The notes under the pieces are model-generated. The model saw only the letters and a program-made list of their open reading frames with translations, was not told where the DNA came from and did no database searches. Source: Nocardioidaceae bacterium (lineage in GTDB: Bacteria > Actinomycetota > Actinomycetes > Propionibacteriales > Nocardioidaceae). Taken from it: 64,000 nt of DNA. Of this stretch, positions 67 through 8,936 are shown in pieces (within the stretch, counting starts at the first letter, position 1; the number at the start of each line of letters is the position of its first letter). The position numbers and the translations under genes were made by a program. The stretch spans positions 806,001-870,000 of the forward strand of contig CP076053.1 of the NCBI GenBank assembly GCA_018672315.1. Direction: 5' to 3'.

Positions 67-3000
67 TCAGGCGTCCTGTGCCGGGTCGCCGTCGCGGTCG
101 GCCGGCTCAGCCGGCTGCGGGGCCTCGGGATCCCCGGTCGAAGCCGTCTCGTGGGGCGCGACGGACGGCGCGGTGGTCTCGGCCTGGGCCGTGGAGGAGG
201 CCGCACGACGCCGACTCCCGCGCCGGGTCGTCGACGTGGTCGTGGTCGGGGCGGCGCTCGTGGCGCTCGTGGCGCTCGTGGCGTCGGGGCTCGTCGCCTC
301 CGCGGCGCCGGCGGCCACCGTCGGCTCGCCGGCGGACTCGGGCTGCTGCGCCGGCGACGGCGCAGCCGCGGCCTTGCGCGCCCCCGTACGCCGCGTGCTG
401 CTCGAGCGGGTGCGCTTGGCGGTCGGCACCTGCTCGGGCGCGGGGTCCGACGTCTCGGCCTGAGGCGCGTCCGCGACCGGCTCGGGCTCGGTCCCCTTCT
501 CGGTGACCGGGTCCACGGCGGGGGTCTCACCGAAGCCGTCCTCCGTCGTCGACGCCCCGTTCGGCGTCTCAGCGGGCTTGTCGTGGCGCGCCATCGCCGC
601 GAGCATCGCCGGGTCGGGCCCCTGACGCGCGGGGGCGGGGTCCTCCCCCTTCTGCGTCGAGCCACCCGAGCCGCCCTGTGGCGAGCCACCCGAGCCGTCG
701 CTCCCTCCGGAGCCGCGGCTCTTGGACGCGCGTCCACGGCCGCGTCGCTGGTCGTCCGCCGCGGGGGCGGGCTCGACGGGCTCGGCGGCGACGGTGTGGC
801 CGCGACCCTTGCAGTGCGGACAGGTCTCGCTGAAGGCCTCGAGCAGGCCTGTGCCGATGCGCTTGCGGGTCATCTGGACGAGTCCGAGGGAGGTCACCTC
901 GGCGACCTGGTGACGCGTACGGTCCCGGCCGAGGCACTCGATGAGACGGCGCAGCACCAGGTCGCGGTTGTTCTGCAGCACCATGTCGATGAAGTCCACG
1001 ACGATGATGCCGCCGATGTCACGCAGTCGCAGCTGACGGACGAGCTCCTCGGCCGCCTCGAGGTTGTTCTTGGTGACCGTCTCCTCCAGGTTGCCGCCCG
1101 ATCCGGTGAACTTGCCGGTGTTGACGTCCACCACGGTCATCGCCTCGGTGCGGTCGATGATCAGCGACCCGCCCGAGGGCAGCCAGACCTTGTGGTCCAG
1201 CGCCTTCGCGAGCTGCTCGTCGATGCGGTGCCGAGCGAAGACGTCGGCGTCGGCGTCCTGGTGGTGCTCGAGACGCTCGACGAGGTCGGGAGCCATGGTG
1301 GAGACGTAGTCGTGCACCGTCTCCCAGGCCTCGTCCCCGGACACGACCAGCGTGCCGAAGTCCTCGGTGAAGACGTCGCGGACGACCTTCAGCGTCAGGT
1401 CGGGCTCGCCGTGGAGCAGCTGCGGGGCGGTGCCCTTCGCCACCTTCTTCTCGATGGACTCCCACTGCGTCTTCAGACGCTCGACGTCGCGGGTCAGCTC
1501 GTCCTCGCTGGCACCCTCGGCGGCGGTACGCACGATCACCCCGGCGCTGCTGGGCACGATCTGCTTGAGCAGTGACTTCAGTCGGGCACGCTCGGTGTCG
1601 GGCAGCTTGCGCGAGATGCCCGAGGTGGTGCCGTCGGGCACGTACACCAGGAACCGGCCGGGCAGGCTGATCTGCCCGGTCAGCCGGGCGCCCTTCTGGC
1701 CGACGGGATCCTTGGAGACCTGCACCAGCACGGACTGGCCGGACTTCAGCACCTGCTCGATCTTGCGGGGCTGGCCCTCCTTCGCGCCCACGGCCTGCCA
1801 GTTGACCTCGCCGGCGTACAGGACGGCGTTGCGGCCCTTGCCGATGTCGATGAACGCGGCCTCCATGGAGGGCAGCACGTTCTGCACCTTGCCGAGGTAG
1901 ACGTTGCCGATCATCGAGGTCTGCGACTTGCGCGCGACGTAGTGCTCCACGAGCACCTTGTCCTCGAGCACCGCGATCTGGGTGAGGTCCTCGCCCTGGC
2001 GTACGACCATCGTGCGGTCGACGGACTCGCGCCGTGCCAGGAACTCGGCCTCGGACACGATCGGCGCCTTGCGCCGCCCCGCCTCGCGGCCCTCACGGCG
2101 GCGCTGCTTCTTCGCCTCGAGCCGTGTCGAGCCCGACAGCGAGGTGATCTCGTCCTCGGGCGAGCGGCCCTTGCGGACGCGCGTGACGGTGTTCTCCGGG
2201 TCGTCGGAGGACCCGTCGCCCGACGAGCCCGAGTCCCCCGAGCGGCGACGGCGCCGACGACGGCGCGATCCGGAACCCGAACCGGAACGCTGCTTGTCGT
2301 CGTCCCCGTCGTCCCCGTCGCTCGTGGAGTCGTTCGTGGAGTCGTTCGCTGCGTCGGTCGGGGTGTCCGTGTCGCTCGTACCCGCGGCGGTCTCGTCCGC
2401 GCCCTTGCCACTCGTCCTGCCACCCGACTTGTTGCCCGACTTGCCACTCGACTTGTTGCCGGACTTGCTGCCGGTGTCCTCGCCCGGGGTCTCGCCGTCG
2501 GCGTCGGACCGCTCGGACGTGCGGGACGACTCGTCCCGGGCGGAGCCGTCGTCACCGGATCCGGCGGACTCGTCGTCCGTGTCGCCGCCCTCGCCGCCCT
2601 CGCCGCTCGAGCCGCTCGAGCCGCCGCGACCACGGCGCCGACGACGGCCGCCGCGGCGACGGCGACGGCGAGCCGGCTTGTCCTCGTCGGAGTCGTCGTC
2701 GGTCTCAGTCGTGTCGCCCGTGTCCGTCGAGTCCTTGGAGTCCTTGGAGTCCTTGGAGTCCTTGGAGTCCTCGGCCTGGTCCGCCCCGGTCTGCGCGACC
2801 TCGCGGGTCCCGGACCCAGCGCTCTCGTCGACCTCGTCGGCCTCCTCGACTTCGGCGGGGCCGGCTTCGCCACCAGCCGACGGAGCAGACACACCGGCCG
2901 CGGCTGCGGTCGTCGCCTGGGCCGTGTCGGGCGCCTGGAAGACGACGCCCGTGGACGAGGCTCCTCGCGACCGACGGGTGCGCGTGGTCGTACGCGTCGT

Positions 3001-3681
3001 CGTCACGGCCGTGGGCTGCTCGGCCGGTCGCTCCTCGGTGGCTTCCGGCGTCTCGGTGGTCTCCGGCGTCTCGGCGTCCTCCGCCACGAGGGCGGCGGCC
3101 TCCGTGGTCGCTGCCTCCTCGGCCTCGGCGGCGGCTTCGACCGGCTGCTCGGCCCCCTCGATGCCGGCGGACCCGCTGGACGGGTTGGACTCGGCGGCCG
3201 CCGAGGTGCGGCGGCGGCTGCCACCGCTGCCCCGCGTACGCGATGAGGTCGTCGTGGTACCGACCGCGGAGCTGGCGGCGGTGGTGACCGGCTCGGTGGA
3301 CTCCTCGCCGTCCTCGCGGCCCCCGGCGTCGTCCCCGGCGTCGTCCCCGGCGCTCAGGACCGAGGCCGGAGCAGGTGCGGCGGACTTGCGGGCGGCACGG
3401 CGGCGGGTCGTCGTACGGGTGGTCGTGGCCGGAGCCTCGTCGGTGGCCTCGGGCGCCTCGGGGGCCGCGTCCGGCACCGAGGAGTCCGCCGGGGCGGCGG
3501 TGGCCTCGGTGGCGGGCTCCTCGACGGCCGTCTCCGGCAGCGCGGGGGGCTCCGGCGCGGCGGCCTTCGTCGTACGCCGCCGTCGGGTCGTCTTCTTGAC
3601 GGCGGGGGCGGACTCGCCACTCCCGCCCGGACCGGCGGCCCCTTCGTCGTTGCCGGCTTCGTTCTGCTGGTCCTCGAGCAT
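67..3681 (-). CDS. rne: Ribonuclease E/G with long disordered N-terminal region
   Basis: Endoribonuclease of the RNase E/G family, which processes rRNA and mRNA and nucleates RNA decay. The 1204-residue protein has a roughly 550-residue low-complexity N-terminus rich in Ala/Glu/Thr and Arg clusters. An S1 domain follows from about residue 589, then the DNase I-like catalytic segment with VVDFIDM near residue 890, and the zinc-link CPHC at residues 954-957. After this comes another disordered tail with repeated Thr-Arg-Arg motifs. Actinobacterial homologues typically carry the disordered arms on both sides of the core. The ATG is preceded by a GGAGAG ribosome site. In related genomes rplU-rpmA-obg follow downstream, which would lie just outside the window. 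Disordered arms contain 9-bp tandem repeats. Confidence 0.93.
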   Translation of the reverse strand: MLEDQQNEAGNDEGAAGPGGSGESAPAVKKTTRRRRTTKAAAPEPPALPETAVEEPATEATAAPADSSVPDAAPEAPEATDEAPATTTRTTTRRRAARKSAAPAPASVLSAGDDAGDDAGGREDGEESTEPVTTAASSAVGTTTTSSRTRGSGGSRRRTSAAAESNPSSGSAGIEGAEQPVEAAAEAEEAATTEAAALVAEDAETPETTETPEATEERPAEQPTAVTTTRTTTRTRRSRGASSTGVVFQAPDTAQATTAAAAGVSAPSAGGEAGPAEVEEADEVDESAGSGTREVAQTGADQAEDSKDSKDSKDSKDSTDTGDTTETDDDSDEDKPARRRRRRGGRRRRRGRGGSSGSSGEGGEGGDTDDESAGSGDDGSARDESSRTSERSDADGETPGEDTGSKSGNKSSGKSGNKSGGRTSGKGADETAAGTSDTDTPTDAANDSTNDSTSDGDDGDDDKQRSGSGSGSRRRRRRRRSGDSGSSGDGSSDDPENTVTRVRKGRSPEDEITSLSGSTRLEAKKQRRREGREAGRRKAPIVSEAEFLARRESVDRTMVVRQGEDLTQIAVLEDKVLVEHYVARKSQTSMIGNVYLGKVQNVLPSMEAAFIDIGKGRNAVLYAGEVNWQAVGAKEGQPRKIEQVLKSGQSVLVQVSKDPVGQKGARLTGQISLPGRFLVYVPDGTTSGISRKLPDTERARLKSLLKQIVPSSAGVIVRTAAEGASEDELTRDVERLKTQWESIEKKVAKGTAPQLLHGEPDLTLKVVRDVFTEDFGTLVVSGDEAWETVHDYVSTMAPDLVERLEHHQDADADVFARHRIDEQLAKALDHKVWLPSGGSLIIDRTEAMTVVDVNTGKFTGSGGNLEETVTKNNLEAAEELVRQLRLRDIGGIIVVDFIDMVLQNNRDLVLRRLIECLGRDRTRHQVAEVTSLGLVQMTRKRIGTGLLEAFSETCPHCKGRGHTVAAEPVEPAPAADDQRRGRGRASKSRGSGGSDGSGGSPQGGSGGSTQKGEDPAPARQGPDPAMLAAMARHDKPAETPNGASTTEDGFGETPAVDPVTEKGTEPEPVADAPQAETSDPAPEQVPTAKRTRSSSTRRTGARKAAAAPSPAQQPESAGEPTVAAGAAEATSPDATSATSATSAAPTTTTSTTRRGSRRRAASSTAQAETTAPSVAPHETASTGDPEAPQPAEPADRDGDPAQDA
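253..279. repeat. 9-bp tandem repeat in rne C-terminal arm
   Basis: Three perfect copies of GGCGCTCGT in tandem, encoding a repeated Ala-Thr-Ser tract in the disordered C-terminal arm of RNase E/G. Being in-frame, it is likely to vary in copy number. Confidence 0.85.
2731..2766. repeat. 9-bp tandem repeat in rne N-terminal arm
   Basis: Four perfect copies of GTCCTTGGA encode a repeated Asp-Ser-Lys unit in the disordered N-terminal arm. The period is a multiple of three, so slippage would keep the frame. Confidence 0.9.
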
Positions 3682-4031: not shown

Positions 4032-4739
4032 TCAGGCCTCCGAGGGGGCGAGTGGGTCGCCGATGGTTCCCTGGTCGCTCAGCGGACCCTGGCGCAGACG
4101 GTGCGGCCTCACGGTCGCCGGTTCGGGCATGCCGCACCTGACCAGCCCTTTCACCACGTCGTCGGGGCGTACGGCCGGGGTGCCGTGTCGGAGCCCCACA
4201 CCGATGGTGAGCGGCTGCACGACGTCGAGGGCGAGCACGGCCTCGCGGACGTCGAACTCGCGCAACCCGCGCTTCGTCATGCGCTCGACCAGCACCTCGG
4301 GTGCGGCCAGGAGAGCCGCGACGGCCCCGTCGAGGGCCGTGGGCTCGACGCCGCCCAGGGTGACGTGCCACTCCGAGGCCTGCAGCAGATCGGCCAGCGA
4401 CCCGCCGGGGCTCACGGCCGCCTCCACGATGTCCAGGCCCGGCGGCAGCGCCTCGTCGACAGCGGCACGCACCTGTTCGGGGTCGACCTCGGTGGCCAGC
4501 CCGATCTCGACGTACTCCGCCTCCGACGCAGCACCCGTCGGCGCGGCATTGGCGTAGGAGATGCGCGGATGGGGGTGGAACCCGGAGGAGTAGGCCATGG
4601 GCACCGCAGCGCGCTTCAGCGCCCGCTCGAAGGCGCGCGAGAAGTCGCGGTGGCTGGAGAAGCGGAGTCGACCGGTCTTGGTGTAGCGCAGCCGGACCTT
4701 CTGCACCGGCGGCGGCTGCTGGGGAGGCTGTTCACGCAC
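4032..4739 (-). CDS. TIGR03936-family radical SAM-associated protein (DUF2344)
   Basis: Conserved protein of unknown biochemical role that pairs with, or is fused to, the TIGR03960 B12-binding radical SAM enzyme in many bacteria. The family signature is visible: RLRYTKTGRLRFSSHRD near the N-terminus, then a GFHPHPRISYANAAPTG segment. There is no iron-sulfur cysteine cluster, as expected for the accessory half. I chose the GTG at 4739 (235 aa) because TATCGT, a good actinobacterial -10, ends seven bases upstream, which implies a leaderless mRNA. A longer reading to 4778 exists but would swallow that promoter. Its partner lies at 6108-8117 with a divergent MFS gene between; rne follows downstream on the same strand. 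Confidence 0.85.
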   Translation of the reverse strand: MREQPPQQPPPVQKVRLRYTKTGRLRFSSHRDFSRAFERALKRAAVPMAYSSGFHPHPRISYANAAPTGAASEAEYVEIGLATEVDPEQVRAAVDEALPPGLDIVEAAVSPGGSLADLLQASEWHVTLGGVEPTALDGAVAALLAAPEVLVERMTKRGLREFDVREAVLALDVVQPLTIGVGLRHGTPAVRPDDVVKGLVRCGMPEPATVRPHRLRQGPLSDQGTIGDPLAPSEA

Positions 4740-4746
4740 CGTCCGG

Positions 4747-4752
4747 ACGATA
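4747..4752 (-). promoter_or_regulatory. -10 element for the TIGR03936 gene
   Basis: TATCGT ends seven bases before the GTG at 4739, the spacing of a leaderless transcript. This element decides the start call. Confidence 0.6.
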
Positions 4753-4793
4753 CGGCCCCCCGCCGTGCGCCGGCCCACTCGACCGGGCAGGGT

Positions 4794-6080
4794 ATGGCGG
4801 TGACCACAGATGCGACCGCGGGCCGGCGCGCCTCCCCCGGGCCGGCCGAGCGCTCCCGCGCGTACGCCGTGCTGCTCGTCGTCGCGATCGTCGCCGTCAG
4901 CCTGAACCTGCGACCCGCCGCGGTCTCCGTCGGTCCGGTGCTGACCGAGATCCGTGACGGTCTGGGCATCTCACCGCTGGTCGCGGGTGTACTCACCACG
5001 CTGCCGGTGGTGGCGTTCGCCGTGCTCGGACTGGGGGCGCCGCGCGCCGCACGCGTGCTCGGGCTGCACCGCACGATGCTGCTCAGCCTCGTCCTCACCA
5101 CGCTCGGTCTGGTCGGACGCAGCCTGGTCAGCGGTCAGGTCGCCTTCCTCGTGCTGAGCCTGCTGGCGCTCTCGGGCGCGGCGGCGGCGAACATCCTGGT
5201 GCCGTCCCTGGTGAAGGTCCACTTCCCCGACCGCATCGGGACCCTCACCGCCGTCTACTCCACCGCCCTGGCGATCGGTCTCACGGCCGCGAGCGTGGCC
5301 ACCGTGCCCCTCGGCGAGAACCTCGCCGGCGTCCTCGGCGACGAGTCGGCGGGCGGATGGCGTACGGCCCTGGGGTCCTGGGCGATCCTCGCCGCGGTCG
5401 CGGCGATGCCGTGGCTCGGTCTCGTACGTCGCGAGGTCGTCCCGCGCGAGGAGGGATCGGCCATCTCGGTGGCGGACGCGGCCCGCACCTCCCTCGGGCG
5501 GCGCATGGCGTTGTTCTTCGCGCTGCAGTCCTTCCAGGCCTACAGCGTGTTCGGGTGGTTCGCCGAGGTCTACCGCGACGCCGGGTTCTCCGCGGGCGAG
5601 GCCGGCCTCCTGCTCGGTGTGATCACGGGGCTGGGCATCCCGGTGAGCTTCATCGTCCCCTCGGTCGCCGCACGGCTGGACGACCAGCGCCTGCTCATCG
5701 TCGGCATCATGGCGTGCGGTCCCGTCGCCTACCTCGGGCTCACGTTCGCGCCGACGACGGTGCCGTACGCCTGGGCGGTGCTGACCGGTGTCAGCCTCGC
5801 GGCGTTCCCGCTGATCCTCGTGCTGATCGGGATGCGGGCGCGTACGTCGGAGGGCACGGCGGCCCTGTCGGGGTTCACGCAGTCGGCGGGCTACGCGATG
5901 GCCGCGCTCGGCCCCTTCGCCGTCGGCGCGATGCGCGACGCCAGCGGGGGGTGGACCCTGCCGCTGCTGGTGATGACGGTCCTGCTGGTGCCCCAGCTGA
6001 TCATCGGCCTGACCGTCGCGAAGCCGGAGTTCATCGAGGACGAGCTGCCGTCAGCCGATGGTCGAGCAGCGAGCCGCTGA
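4794..6080 (+). CDS. MFS transporter, CynX/NimT (cyanate permease-like) family
   Basis: Twelve-helix major facilitator of 428 aa. The N-terminal helix contains the family-typical SLNLRPAAVSVGPVL segment. Later helices include a FALQSFQAYSVFGWFAEVYRDAGFS stretch characteristic of CynX/NimT-like carriers. Members transport cyanate, 2-nitroimidazole or other small anions or drugs; the substrate here cannot be told. The reading frame stays open for 365 codons upstream, but that part is the antisense of the TIGR03936 gene, so ATG 4794 is used. The gene sits alone on the plus strand between the two halves of the radical SAM pair. Its last residues (DGRAASR) are encoded by a dispersed palindromic repeat, which suggests the repeat landed on the gene's 3' end. 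Confidence 0.82.
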   Translation: MAVTTDATAGRRASPGPAERSRAYAVLLVVAIVAVSLNLRPAAVSVGPVLTEIRDGLGISPLVAGVLTTLPVVAFAVLGLGAPRAARVLGLHRTMLLSLVLTTLGLVGRSLVSGQVAFLVLSLLALSGAAAANILVPSLVKVHFPDRIGTLTAVYSTALAIGLTAASVATVPLGENLAGVLGDESAGGWRTALGSWAILAAVAAMPWLGLVRREVVPREEGSAISVADAARTSLGRRMALFFALQSFQAYSVFGWFAEVYRDAGFSAGEAGLLLGVITGLGIPVSFIVPSVAARLDDQRLLIVGIMACGPVAYLGLTFAPTTVPYAWAVLTGVSLAAFPLILVLIGMRARTSEGTAALSGFTQSAGYAMAALGPFAVGAMRDASGGWTLPLLVMTVLLVPQLIIGLTVAKPEFIEDELPSADGRAASR

Positions 6081-6094
6081 GCGGCTGCGAGACC
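6057..6094. repeat. Dispersed palindromic repeat, copy 1
   Basis: GGTCGAGCAGCGAG followed by a CCGCTGAGCGG core and GCGAGACC. It shares the GGTCGAG-AGCGAG left arm with copies at 33235-33278 and 33956-34000. This copy overlaps the MFS stop codon. Confidence 0.6.
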
Positions 6095-6107
6095 GAGCGG
6101 CAGACCG

Positions 6108-8117
6108 TCAGACGACGGACAACGGCAGCAGCTTCTGACCCGTCGGACCGATCTGGATGTCGGTGCCCATCTCGGGGCAGACGCCGCAGTCGTAGCAGGG
6201 GGTCCAGCGGCAGTCCTCGACGTCCTCGACGGCGTCGGGGTTCTCGGCGGCATCGAGGGCCTGCTCCCAGTCGTCCCAGAGCCAGTCCTTGTCGAGGCCG
6301 GAGTCGAGGTGGTCCCAGGGCAGGACCTCCTCCAGGCTGCGCTCGCGAGTCGTGTACCAGGCGACGTCGACGCCGGTGCCGGCCAGACCGACCTCGGCCG
6401 CGGACATCCAGCGGTCGTAGGAGAAGTGCTCGCTCCAACCGTCGAAGCGACCGCCGTCGCGCCACACCTGCTCGATGACGGCGCCGACCCGGCGATCCCC
6501 GCGTGAGAGCAGTCCCTCGACGATGCCGGGCTTGCCGTCGTGGTAGCGGAAGCCGATGGCACGGCCGTACTTCTTGTCGCTGCGCACCGACTCCCGCAGG
6601 GCCGTGAGCCGCTCGTCGGTGGTCTCGTGGTCGAGCTGGGCCGCCCACTGGAACGGGGTGTGGGGCTTCGGCACGAAGCCGCCGATGGACACGGTGCAGC
6701 GGATGTCGTTGCGTCCGGAGACCTCGCGGCCGGTCTTGATGACCTTCTTGGCGAGGTCGGCGATGCCGAGCACGTCCTCGTCGCGCTCGGTGGGGAGACC
6801 GCACATGAAGTACAGCTTCACCTGCCGCCAGCCGTGGGAGTACGCCGCGGCGACCGTACGGATCAGGTCCTCCTCGGTCACCGCCTTGTTGATGACCTTG
6901 CGCATCCGCTCGCTGCCGCCCTCGGGGGCGAAGGTCAGGCCGGAGCGGCGCCCGTTGCGGGAGAACTCGTTGGCCAGCGTGATGTTGAAGGCGTCGACCC
7001 GGGTCGAGGGCAGCGACAGCGAGACGTTGGAGCCCTCGTAGCGGTCGGCCAGCCCCGTGGCGACGTCGCCGATCTCGGTGTGGTCGGCGGAGCTCAACGA
7101 GAGCAGTCCGACCTCCTCGAAGCCGGTCTTCTTGATGCCGTTGTCGACCATCCTGCCGATGGTGTCGATCGACCGCTCGCGCACCGGGCGCGTGATCATG
7201 CCCGCCTGGCAGAAACGGCATCCACGGGTGCAGCCACGGAAGATCTCGACGGAGTAGCGCTCGTGCACGGTCTCGGCCAGCGGCACCAGCGGGTTCGCCG
7301 GGTACGGCCAGGCGTCGAGGTCCATCAGCGTGTGCTTGCGGATGCGCTCGGGCACGCCCGGCACCGTGGGAGTCACCGAGGCAATCGTGCCGTCCTCGGC
7401 GTACGTCACCTCGTGGAAGGCCGGCACGTACACCGACCCGGACACCGTGAGCCGGCGCAGCAGCTCCTGGCGCGGCGTGAGTGAGCCGTCCTCGGAGCCG
7501 GGCCGACCCTGCTCCTTCCACTCGCGGACGACGTCGCTGATGTGCAGCACGACCTCCTCCCCGTCGCCCACCACGGCGGCGTCGAGGAAGTCGGCGACGG
7601 GCTCGGGGTTGAAGGCCGCGTGGCCTCCGGCGATGACGAGCGGCTCGTCGGTGCGGTCGCGAGCGTGCAGCGGGATGCCAGCGAGGTCCAGCGCGGTGAG
7701 CATGTTGGTGTAGCCCAGCTCGGTGGAGAAGCTGATGCCCAGCAGGTCGAAGTCGCCGACCGCGCGGTGGGAGTCCACGGTGAATTGCGGGACGGCGGCC
7801 TCGCGCATGCGGTCCTCGAGGTCGCGCCACACCGAGTAGGTGCGCTCGGCCAGGATCCAGTCGCGCTCGTTGAGCACCTCGTACAGGATCTGGACGCCCT
7901 GGTTGGGCAGCCCCACCTCGTACGCGTCGGGATACATCAGCGCCCACCGCACCCGCTCGGCGCCCGACGCATCGCACCACGACTTCGTGACCGCGTTGAG
8001 CTCGCCGCCGACGTACTGGATCGGCTTCTGCACGTGCGGCAGGAGAGCCTCGAGAGAAGCGAAGACGGAGTCGCCGGGTCGGTGGACCGGGGTGGGACGG
8101 TCGGGCGCGATGGTCAT
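6108..8117 (-). CDS. TIGR03960-family B12-binding radical SAM protein
   Basis: Radical SAM enzyme of 669 aa with an N-terminal cobalamin-binding-like region and the [4Fe-4S] motif CTRGCRFC at C296, C300 and C303. A cysteine-rich tail (CYDCGVCPE near residue 650) may hold another metal or cluster. The early RVRWALMYPDAYEVG stretch is typical of the family. The physiological reaction is not established. Its usual companion, TIGR03936, is encoded 1.4 kb downstream beyond an opposing MFS gene; in many bacteria the two are fused or directly adjacent and lie next to rne/rng and rplU. A GGAGG-type ribosome site precedes the ATG (CCTCCGGAGGCTC immediately upstream). Confidence 0.9.
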   Translation of the reverse strand: MTIAPDRPTPVHRPGDSVFASLEALLPHVQKPIQYVGGELNAVTKSWCDASGAERVRWALMYPDAYEVGLPNQGVQILYEVLNERDWILAERTYSVWRDLEDRMREAAVPQFTVDSHRAVGDFDLLGISFSTELGYTNMLTALDLAGIPLHARDRTDEPLVIAGGHAAFNPEPVADFLDAAVVGDGEEVVLHISDVVREWKEQGRPGSEDGSLTPRQELLRRLTVSGSVYVPAFHEVTYAEDGTIASVTPTVPGVPERIRKHTLMDLDAWPYPANPLVPLAETVHERYSVEIFRGCTRGCRFCQAGMITRPVRERSIDTIGRMVDNGIKKTGFEEVGLLSLSSADHTEIGDVATGLADRYEGSNVSLSLPSTRVDAFNITLANEFSRNGRRSGLTFAPEGGSERMRKVINKAVTEEDLIRTVAAAYSHGWRQVKLYFMCGLPTERDEDVLGIADLAKKVIKTGREVSGRNDIRCTVSIGGFVPKPHTPFQWAAQLDHETTDERLTALRESVRSDKKYGRAIGFRYHDGKPGIVEGLLSRGDRRVGAVIEQVWRDGGRFDGWSEHFSYDRWMSAAEVGLAGTGVDVAWYTTRERSLEEVLPWDHLDSGLDKDWLWDDWEQALDAAENPDAVEDVEDCRWTPCYDCGVCPEMGTDIQIGPTGQKLLPLSVV

Positions 8118-8243: not shown

Positions 8244-8936
8244 TCAGCCGTCCAGGGCCCACCGCACTGCGGCCTCGGCATGCAGCCGGGTCGTGGCGTA
8301 CGTGGGCACGTCGACGTCGTCCGGACCCAGGAGCAGCTCGATCTCGGTGCAACCGAGCACGACACCCTGCGCACCTCTCGCCACGAGACGCTCGACCACA
8401 GCGACGTACGTGTCCCGCGACTGCTCTCGAACCTCGCCACGAACGAGCTCGTCGTAGATGACCCGGTGCACCTCCCCCCGGTCCACCTCGTCGGGGACGA
8501 GCACGGTGAGCCCGTGGGCAGCGAGCCGGTCACGGTAGAACGGCTGCTCCATCGTAAACGCCGTGCCGAGCAGCCCGACGGTCGACAGACCGTCGTCCGA
8601 GACGGCGCGGGCCGTGACGTCGGCCAGGTGCACGAACGGCACCTCCACCGCCGCCTCGATCGACTCGGCGACCCGGTGCATCGTGTTCGTGCAGAGCACG
8701 AGCACCTCGGCGCCGGCGGCGACGAGCGCTCGGGCGCGGCCCGCGAGGAGGTCCCCGGCCTCGTCCCATCGATCCTCGCGCTGCAGGCGTTCGACGTCCG
8801 CGAAGTCGACGGAGTCCAGCACGATCCGCGCCGAGTGGAGCCCACCGCGTCGCTCGCGCACCGCCTCGTTGATCAGGCGGTAGTAGAGCGCGCTGGACTC
8901 CCAGCTCATCCCGCCGAGCAGACCGATCGTGCGCAT
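8244..8936 (-). CDS. Aspartate/glutamate racemase family protein
   Basis: Predicted cytosolic amino-acid racemase-fold protein of 230 aa. The N-terminal TIGLLGGMSWESSALYYRLIN segment is that of the YgeA/aspartate racemase group. Two catalytic-type cysteines are visible, in VLCTNTMH and LGCTEIELL, so the two-base racemase mechanism is possible. The exact substrate (Asp, Glu or another amino acid) cannot be told. Start ATG 8936 fits a leaderless transcript: TAGCAT ends six bases upstream and overlaps the stop codon of the preceding DUF4184 gene. Confidence 0.87.
   Translation of the reverse strand: MRTIGLLGGMSWESSALYYRLINEAVRERRGGLHSARIVLDSVDFADVERLQREDRWDEAGDLLAGRARALVAAGAEVLVLCTNTMHRVAESIEAAVEVPFVHLADVTARAVSDDGLSTVGLLGTAFTMEQPFYRDRLAAHGLTVLVPDEVDRGEVHRVIYDELVRGEVREQSRDTYVAVVERLVARGAQGVVLGCTEIELLLGPDDVDVPTYATTRLHAEAAVRWALDG

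Follow-up and report, generated by a model that had tools for sequence, protein, structure and literature searches.

Here, we analyze a 64,000-nucleotide stretch of DNA (the window) from a Nocardioidaceae bacterium (contig CP076053.1, positions 806,001 to 870,000; part of a single-contig 3.6 Mb genome), and focus on a pair of proteins encoded there, TIGR03960 and TIGR03936. Neither has a functional name in NCBIfam or Pfam. We find that the pair probably forms a two-part RNA-modifying enzyme, composed of a catalytic radical S-adenosylmethionine (SAM) protein, TIGR03960, and a catalytically dead, TruA-like RNA-binding part, TIGR03936, also known as DUF2344. The two parts are taken to act together because they are fused in nature, are present in the same genomes and are absent jointly. 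The fold of TIGR03936 points to RNA as the substrate, and the nearest structures of TIGR03960 point to cobalamin-mediated methylation of carbon. The two folds (in predicted models), the missing catalytic aspartate, the co-occurrence, the natural fusion and the joint absence were all computed in this work. An earlier note on this DNA had placed the two genes on the same strand, on either side of a divergent carrier of the major facilitator superfamily (MFS) and beside rne, the gene for RNase E/G. The coordinates of the open reading frames (ORFs) and the family scores agree with this arrangement, and both proteins exceed the curated cut-offs of their families (Table 1).

The AlphaFold2 model of TIGR03936, built from the window's protein and 77 relatives, has a pLDDT of 94.8 and a pTM of 0.87. 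We compared it with solved structures using Foldseek and VIA-align, which show a shared fold, not a shared function. Nineteen of the best 21 Foldseek rows against the PDB (E 2.0e-7 to 5.1e-5) are pseudouridine-synthase chains (TruA, PUS1, PUS3), with TM-scores on the query of 0.40 to 0.56. The remaining two are trypanosome mitoribosome-assembly chains, which we take to be pseudouridine-synthase-like. Rows below these 21 are unrelated; DyP-type peroxidases, for example, have a TM-score of about 0.2. VIA-align gave 772 chains at Z ≥2, and the best 50 are either pseudouridine synthases by title or H/ACA, telomerase or mitoribosome-assembly chains, presumably also of the pseudouridine-synthase type. 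Here the top scores belong to PUS3 (Z 13.4; 195 residues, 3.2 Å), PUS10 (Z 13.4; 200 residues, 3.6 Å) and TruA (Z 13.2, 13.1 and 12.7), where the best Z without a clear match is typically 7 to 8. By both measures (Foldseek E 2.0e-7, VIA-align Z 13.4), the predicted TIGR03936 model has the pseudouridine-synthase fold. No Cas6/RAMP-type title appears among the Foldseek and VIA-align rows listed, a listing that does not exclude such a fold.

A weak likeness to TruA is seen in sequence profiles. When 78 DUF2344 sequences are aligned with 17 TruA sequences by hhalign, the probability is 90.5 (E 1.4e-6), and the 73 aligned columns span the catalytic motif of TruA; two unrelated proteins of the window, used as controls, give 0.06 and 0.40. 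In this alignment the catalytic aspartate of TruA falls at P80, two residues before the invariant G82, and this residue is never aspartate in the 78 sequences (P 33, S 17, G 12, A 12, Q 2, N 1, T 1). TIGR03936 is therefore not filed as an active pseudouridine synthase; judged by this alignment, it is a TruA relative that lacks the pseudouridine-forming residue. The window's TIGR03936 also has no match to PF01416 at E 0.001. Other positions of DUF2344 are strongly conserved, namely H43 (76/78), R52, R56, G66 (78/78), P69, G82 (78/78) and E88 (75/78, the rest being aspartate). Matches to TIGR03936 below the cut-off are weak (about 20 bits) and confined to one short region of ORFs of 244 to 321 residues. 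We fetched 18 of these 20 matches, leaving out G010, which looks like a fragment of a true gene, and G051. The TruA motif RTDxGVH is present in 17 of the 18, with none found in L098, and one of them scores 105.7 bits against PF01416 and 17.1 against DUF2344.

TIGR03960 belongs to the radical SAM superfamily, as indicated by its CX3CX2C motif and its match to PF04055. The residues of this motif (C296, C300, C303) had been read exactly in the earlier note, which overlooked a second motif of four cysteines, C636, C641, C644 and C647. The protein has ten cysteines in all, the other three being C48, C439 and C474. In two alignments, one of 19 TIGR03960 sequences and the other a 37-sequence fusion set, CX3CX2C is present throughout (19/19 and 37/37). 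The four C-terminal columns are invariant in the 19 sequences, and the strict spacing CX4CX2CX2C is kept in 18 of them and in 21 of the 37 sequences of the fusion set, among which the spacing varies; in one of these (L172), no cysteine of this motif is found in the segment examined. The C-terminal motif may hold a second iron-sulfur (Fe-S) cluster. The only invariant cysteines in the 19-sequence set are the three of the radical SAM motif and these four, with none before C296. The fold of TIGR03960 was read not from the window's protein but from the model of a relative, the natural fusion L106 (824 residues, 37 alignment rows; pLDDT 91.5, pTM 0.91). Residues 28–495 of L106 best match MgmA, the B12 radical-SAM methylase of a glutamine in methyl-coenzyme M reductase (Z 22.9; 371 residues, 2.9 Å, 20% identity), followed by CysS (19.1), MiaB (18.2), MtaB (18.1), AprD4 (17.5), RimO (17.1), TsrM (17.0), OxsB (16.5) and TokK (16.4). 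In the same model the DUF2344 part matches PUS3 (residues 616–824, Z 14.9) and TruA (617–824, Z 14.6), and the model gives no more than a hint of how the two parts dock. The window's TIGR03960 also matches TIGR04014 weakly (45.7 bits, far below the curated cut-off of 360).

The two families are closely linked. In a phylum sample of 198 genomes, the window's own included, both are found above their cut-offs in the same 104 genomes. Left outside this count are eight genomes with only below-cut-off TIGR03936 matches, all carrying the TruA motif, and eight with only below-cut-off TIGR03960 matches. A wider scan, in which an alignment led by the natural fusion L047 was run against 84,980 species, yielded 592 confirmed stretches; among the best 80, a sample biased to relatives of the query, the halves co-occur in at least nine phyla, as counted from record titles. 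Forty-one of these 80 loci are fused, 38 are adjacent (<400 bp) and one is cut by a contig end. Together with gaps of <400 bp in 86 of the 88 measurable phylum genomes outside the window's class, this bears out the earlier statement that the halves are usually fused or adjacent. Five more genomes outside the class have the halves on different contigs, and the two exceptions have a gap of 471 bp and halves 20.7 kb apart on opposite strands. Within the class, the gap is at least 1.45 kb in all 11 genomes of the phylum sample; the halves are adjacent in loci of Actinomadura, Nonomuraea and Nocardiopsaceae (L158, L163, L182), which we take to belong to the same class. The genome with the widely separated halves (G171; L085, L050) is a natural separation in which neither half is lost: TIGR03936 still lies between mreC and RNase E/G, and the distant TIGR03960 is flanked on both sides by rodA-like matches.

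How might such an enzyme work? TIGR03960 would do the chemistry, with its predicted cobalamin-type N-terminal domain, radical-SAM barrel and C-terminal cysteine motif. TIGR03936, TruA-like but without the nucleophile, would presumably hold a structured RNA, either ribosomal RNA (rRNA) or transfer RNA (tRNA), and present it to the radical-SAM site. The likeliest reaction would be methylation of an unactivated nucleoside carbon, the methyl group being passed from SAM via cobalamin. A fuller version of this proposal, that a B12-dependent radical SAM enzyme guided by a dead pseudouridine synthase makes, in many phyla, a nucleoside modification that has no assigned enzyme, is an open prospect to which we lend slightly less than even credence.

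Several observations weigh against our proposal. Cobalamin dependence of TIGR03960 is suggested by the predicted fold of a relative, and no Pfam B12-binding model matched the window's protein. The position of the TruA aspartate comes from hhalign profile alignment, not from superposed coordinates. When a single TruA sequence replaces the TruA alignment, the hhalign probability drops to 18.2; the sequence link is therefore weak without profiles, and it is the fold that carries the argument. The net charge of DUF2344 is slightly positive (median 2.5; positive in 49/78; +1 in the window), as is that of TruA (median 2.0), and so supports RNA binding no further than TruA's own charge does. The linkage has exceptions too. 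Four of the 100 genomes in our sample of the window's family (G031, G038, G044, G064; fragmented, 76 to 85% complete) have one half only, and one of the eight phylum genomes with below-cut-off TIGR03960 matches (G246) has a TIGR03960 fragment of 180 bits but nothing that matches TIGR03936. Distant relatives of TIGR03960 occur on phage contigs with no TIGR03936 in the DNA fetched, so TIGR03960-like proteins can exist without the partner. Finally, MgmA, the closest solved relative of TIGR03960, acts on a protein, as described in passages of PMC11796369.

This last point raises the alternative that the substrate is a protein of the ribosome or one associated with it (for example L21, L27 or RNase E), and that the pseudouridine-synthase-like part only docks on rRNA or on the assembling subunit. 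Such a scheme would fit the nature of MgmA, a protein methylase, and the rank of RimO, the methylthiotransferase of ribosomal protein S12, among the structural matches (Z 17.1). It would also fit the presence of rne, rplU, rpmA and obg in the neighborhood. However, the order mre-rod-rne-rplU-obg is possibly inherited without functional meaning, RNase E/G is not found within 2.5 kb in 13 of 64 loci (only one of which has rplU/rpmA downstream), and L27 is encoded in 23 of the 58 loci with 8 kb of downstream DNA. The fold of the partner, moreover, is that of a nucleoside-modifying enzyme, and we regard a protein substrate as unlikely. About equally doubtful is an RNA enzyme of other chemistry, inserting sulfur or a methylthio group with the C-terminal cysteine motif as an auxiliary cluster and without cobalamin. 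MiaB, MtaB and RimO do rank just after MgmA and CysS, and there is a second four-cysteine motif that might hold a cluster. But the spacing of that motif varies, with no such cysteine seen in 1 of 37 sequences, and the N-terminal domain of TIGR03960 has no invariant cysteine, unlike methylthiotransferases, in which, as in MiaB and RimO, this domain has three conserved cysteines.

Less probable still is that the DUF2344 part is itself catalytic, with conserved H43, R52, R56 or E88 replacing the aspartate of TruA. While E88, H43, G82 and G66 are indeed strongly conserved, 74 of 78 sequences have P, S, G or A, and none has D, where the nucleophile of TruA aligns. It is also conceivable, but highly improbable, that the MFS carrier is part of the system, for example as an importer of a precursor or of a cobamide. 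The carrier does lie between the halves in most measurable genomes of the family (58/77), but 19 of the 77 have the pair and no MFS in the gap, the carrier is kept beside rne in genomes that lack both radical-SAM genes, the gaps read from other families carry unrelated genes, and 79 of the best 80 loci are fused or adjacent. Of these schemes, we favor the one in which a radical SAM enzyme is guided to RNA by a dead TruA-like partner.

Proximity of the pair to rne and to ribosomal protein genes is real, but it may reflect inherited gene order. The earlier note had drawn its suggestion of an RNA or ribosomal substrate from this proximity, calling it persistent. We find that the case for an RNA substrate has grown stronger through the pseudouridine-synthase fold of the partner, not through the neighborhood of rne, which is frequent rather than obligatory. 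Among the best 80 loci, 64 have at least 2.5 kb of downstream sequence; RNase E/G lies within 2.5 kb in 51, always on the same strand, and is missing there from the other 13. In the phylum sample, 78 genomes have both the pair and RNase E/G placed on one contig among the matches listed; in every one of these, the two share a strand and lie within 4 kb. Of the other 26 pair-positive genomes, one has RNase E/G on another contig and 25 have no RNase position among the matches listed; compared by eye, nine of these 25 do have an RNase E/G match, and the table of matched genomes lacks the other 16. Common occurrence far from rne, which the earlier note had named as evidence against its idea, is thus partly borne out (13/64 loci without RNase E/G nearby; 16/104 genomes without a match to it). 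In four loci from genomes without an RNase E/G match (L077, L078, L079, L082), rplU and rpmA come directly after the pair, with obg behind them. In three further loci from such genomes (L075, L083, L084), searching the 7.6 to 8.2 kb downstream found no rne, rplU, rpmA or obg; a fourth, L076, ends too near for the downstream genes to be judged.

In this lineage, it is not unusual for an MFS gene to split the pair. Our family sample comprises 100 genomes, the window's own included, with TIGR03960 above cut-off in 89 and TIGR03936 in 94. The distance between halves could be measured in 77, the other 23 having a missing half or halves on different contigs. This gap has a median of 2,733 bp and a range of 116 to 35,992 bp, with the halves on the same strand always; from TIGR03936 to the RNase E/G domain, the median is 1,874 bp and the range 1,361 to 5,232 bp, again on the same strand, in all 87 genomes measured. 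The interval between halves is therefore far more variable than the interval to rne. Comparing neighborhoods with and without the carrier, as the earlier note had advised, we find a homologue of the MFS gene (E ≤1e-20) inside the gap in 58 of the 77, on the opposite strand in 57 of these, and absent or elsewhere in the other 19. Neither TIGR03960 nor TIGR03936 has a match in G008 and G030, two near-complete sister genomes of the same genus, each on a single contig, which nevertheless keep rne and, between rodA and rne, the MFS gene on the opposite strand. Both halves are thus missing at once in these genomes, and the MFS is independent of them. The earlier suggestion that the carrier may be an insertion thereby gains ground: it is independent and old, and found across the family. 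A role as a component of the system was rejected from the joint absence of the pair with the MFS kept and from the lineage patterns; most likely, the MFS gene has no part in the system.

Other cargo is found at this site. No match to the MFS gene was found in three gaps examined from other families of the class (L071, L072, L091), which hold unrelated genes, among them an IclR regulator, E1 dehydrogenase subunits, a WXG100 protein, an Mrr-TerD protein and a serine recombinase (L072). A histidine kinase and glycosyltransferases, among others, occupy the gap in one genome of the window's own family. This cargo was read from hand-picked ORFs (20 proteins, 18 of them from gaps). Window positions 4779–6107 and their equivalents behave as a site of gene acquisition in several of the class's families, with mixed cargo of up to 36 kb; the interval to rne differs from the half-to-half interval in this respect. 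In L063, a sister genome without the pair, a second MFS gene and a flavodoxin-type reductase adjoin the CynX-like MFS in the same region.

Within the window, minus-strand transcription runs in the order ndk, mreB, mreC, PBP2, rodA, Asp/Glu racemase, TIGR03960, TIGR03936, rne, and rplU, rpmA, obg and proB come just beyond the window, after rne. Genes ndk to rodA were named by eye from the ORF list rather than by family search, as were the four beyond rne. The MFS gene falls short of the TIGR00896 (CynX/NimT) cut-off of 406 bits and is a relative of that subfamily only. For TIGR03936, the GTG at 4739 is probably the start, rather than that at 4778, because the N-termini of some relatives and the upstream sequence fit it. 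The MFS start codon (ATG, 4794) lies 15 bp from the TIGR03936 start if this is at 4778, and 54 bp if at 4739. The racemase gene, which sits between rodA and TIGR03960, was seen by tblastn and blastp in no other fetched locus, many of which end short of that upstream region. Neither promoters nor terminators stood out above chance when the locus was scanned, and searches of the window with Rfam (gathering thresholds) and ARAGORN matched five tRNAs only.

Table 1. Genes and motifs at the TIGR03960/TIGR03936 locus (window coordinates)
Feature	Coordinates	Strand	Evidence
rne, RNase E/G, with long low-complexity N-terminus	67..3681	-	TIGR00757 508.7 bits; PF10150 335.2 bits
TIGR03936/DUF2344 gene, pseudouridine-synthase fold (predicted model), without TruA catalytic Asp	4032..4778	-	TIGR03936 193.4 bits (cut-off 71.9); PF10105 171.5 bits (cut-off 23.8); AlphaFold2; Foldseek; VIA-align
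CynX/NimT-like MFS carrier, divergent	4794..6080	+	TIGR00896 306.1 bits; PF07690 61.3 bits; homologue distribution
TIGR03960: N-terminal Radical_SAM_N2, radical-SAM domain, C-terminal Cys motif	6108..8117	-	TIGR03960 681.9 bits (curated NCBIfam cut-off 462.3); PF19864; PF04055 73 bits
Second Cys motif CX4CX2CX2C (C636, C641, C644, C647), candidate auxiliary Fe-S site	6177..6212	-	
Radical SAM motif CX3CX2C (C296, C300, C303)	7209..7232	-	within TIGR03960 protein
Asp/Glu racemase	8244..8936	-	TIGR00035 231.4 bits (cut-off 93.1)

TIGR03960-like radical SAM proteins are also encoded on six IMG/VR viral contigs (L054–L059), with roughly 25 to 35% identity where they match. The two tested (L054, L057) score 310 bits, below the cut-off of 462. 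In L054, the gene lies upstream of a ParB-like gene, a terminase gene and a portal gene.

If our proposal is true, TIGR03960 would be, to our knowledge, the first radical SAM enzyme of class B with RNA as its substrate. In the review passages available to us, the radical SAM methylases named with RNA substrates are all of other kinds. The specific claim can now be put simply: an RNA modification is expected to vanish when either gene is removed. With the partner recognized as a relative of pseudouridine synthases, the pair merits attention at the level of nucleosides. No treatment of the function of the pair was found in the open-access literature, judged by titles or the start of abstracts. 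By analogy with the ArcS-RaSEA system, the pair also suggests that an RNA-modifying enzyme can be reused as an RNA-presenting module for radical chemistry.

How does the pair compare with known systems? TruA, PUS1, PUS3 and PUS10 share the fold of DUF2344 over the whole domain (Z up to 13.4, about 195 to 200 residues), and TruA shows weak sequence homology to DUF2344 over its catalytic region. In contrast to these enzymes, DUF2344 lacks the catalytic aspartate (78/78) and is fused or linked to a radical SAM enzyme, and the window's protein has no PF01416 match at E 0.001. The N-terminal domain and radical-SAM barrel of the L106 model resemble those of MgmA, a match that excludes the pseudouridine-synthase-like part, and the weak TIGR04014 hit of the window's protein is a further point of likeness; according to passages of PMC11796369, MgmA acts on protein and its cobalamin sits in a Rossmann domain. 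Like MiaB, MtaB and RimO (Z 17 to 18), the L106 model has a radical-SAM barrel within a similar overall layout. The absence of any invariant cysteine before C296 sets TIGR03960 apart from the methylthiotransferases, and its candidate RNA-binding domain is different from theirs. Finally, in the tRNA modification system described in passages of PMC11298593, archaeosine is made by a complex of the radical SAM enzyme RaSEA and the ArcTGT homologue ArcS. There too, a radical SAM enzyme is joined to a homologue of another RNA-modifying enzyme, which is an analogy and not membership. ArcS-RaSEA is archaeal, and ArcS is itself catalytic, whereas TIGR03936 would serve to hold and present the RNA. The fold of ArcS, we presume, is unrelated to that of TIGR03936.

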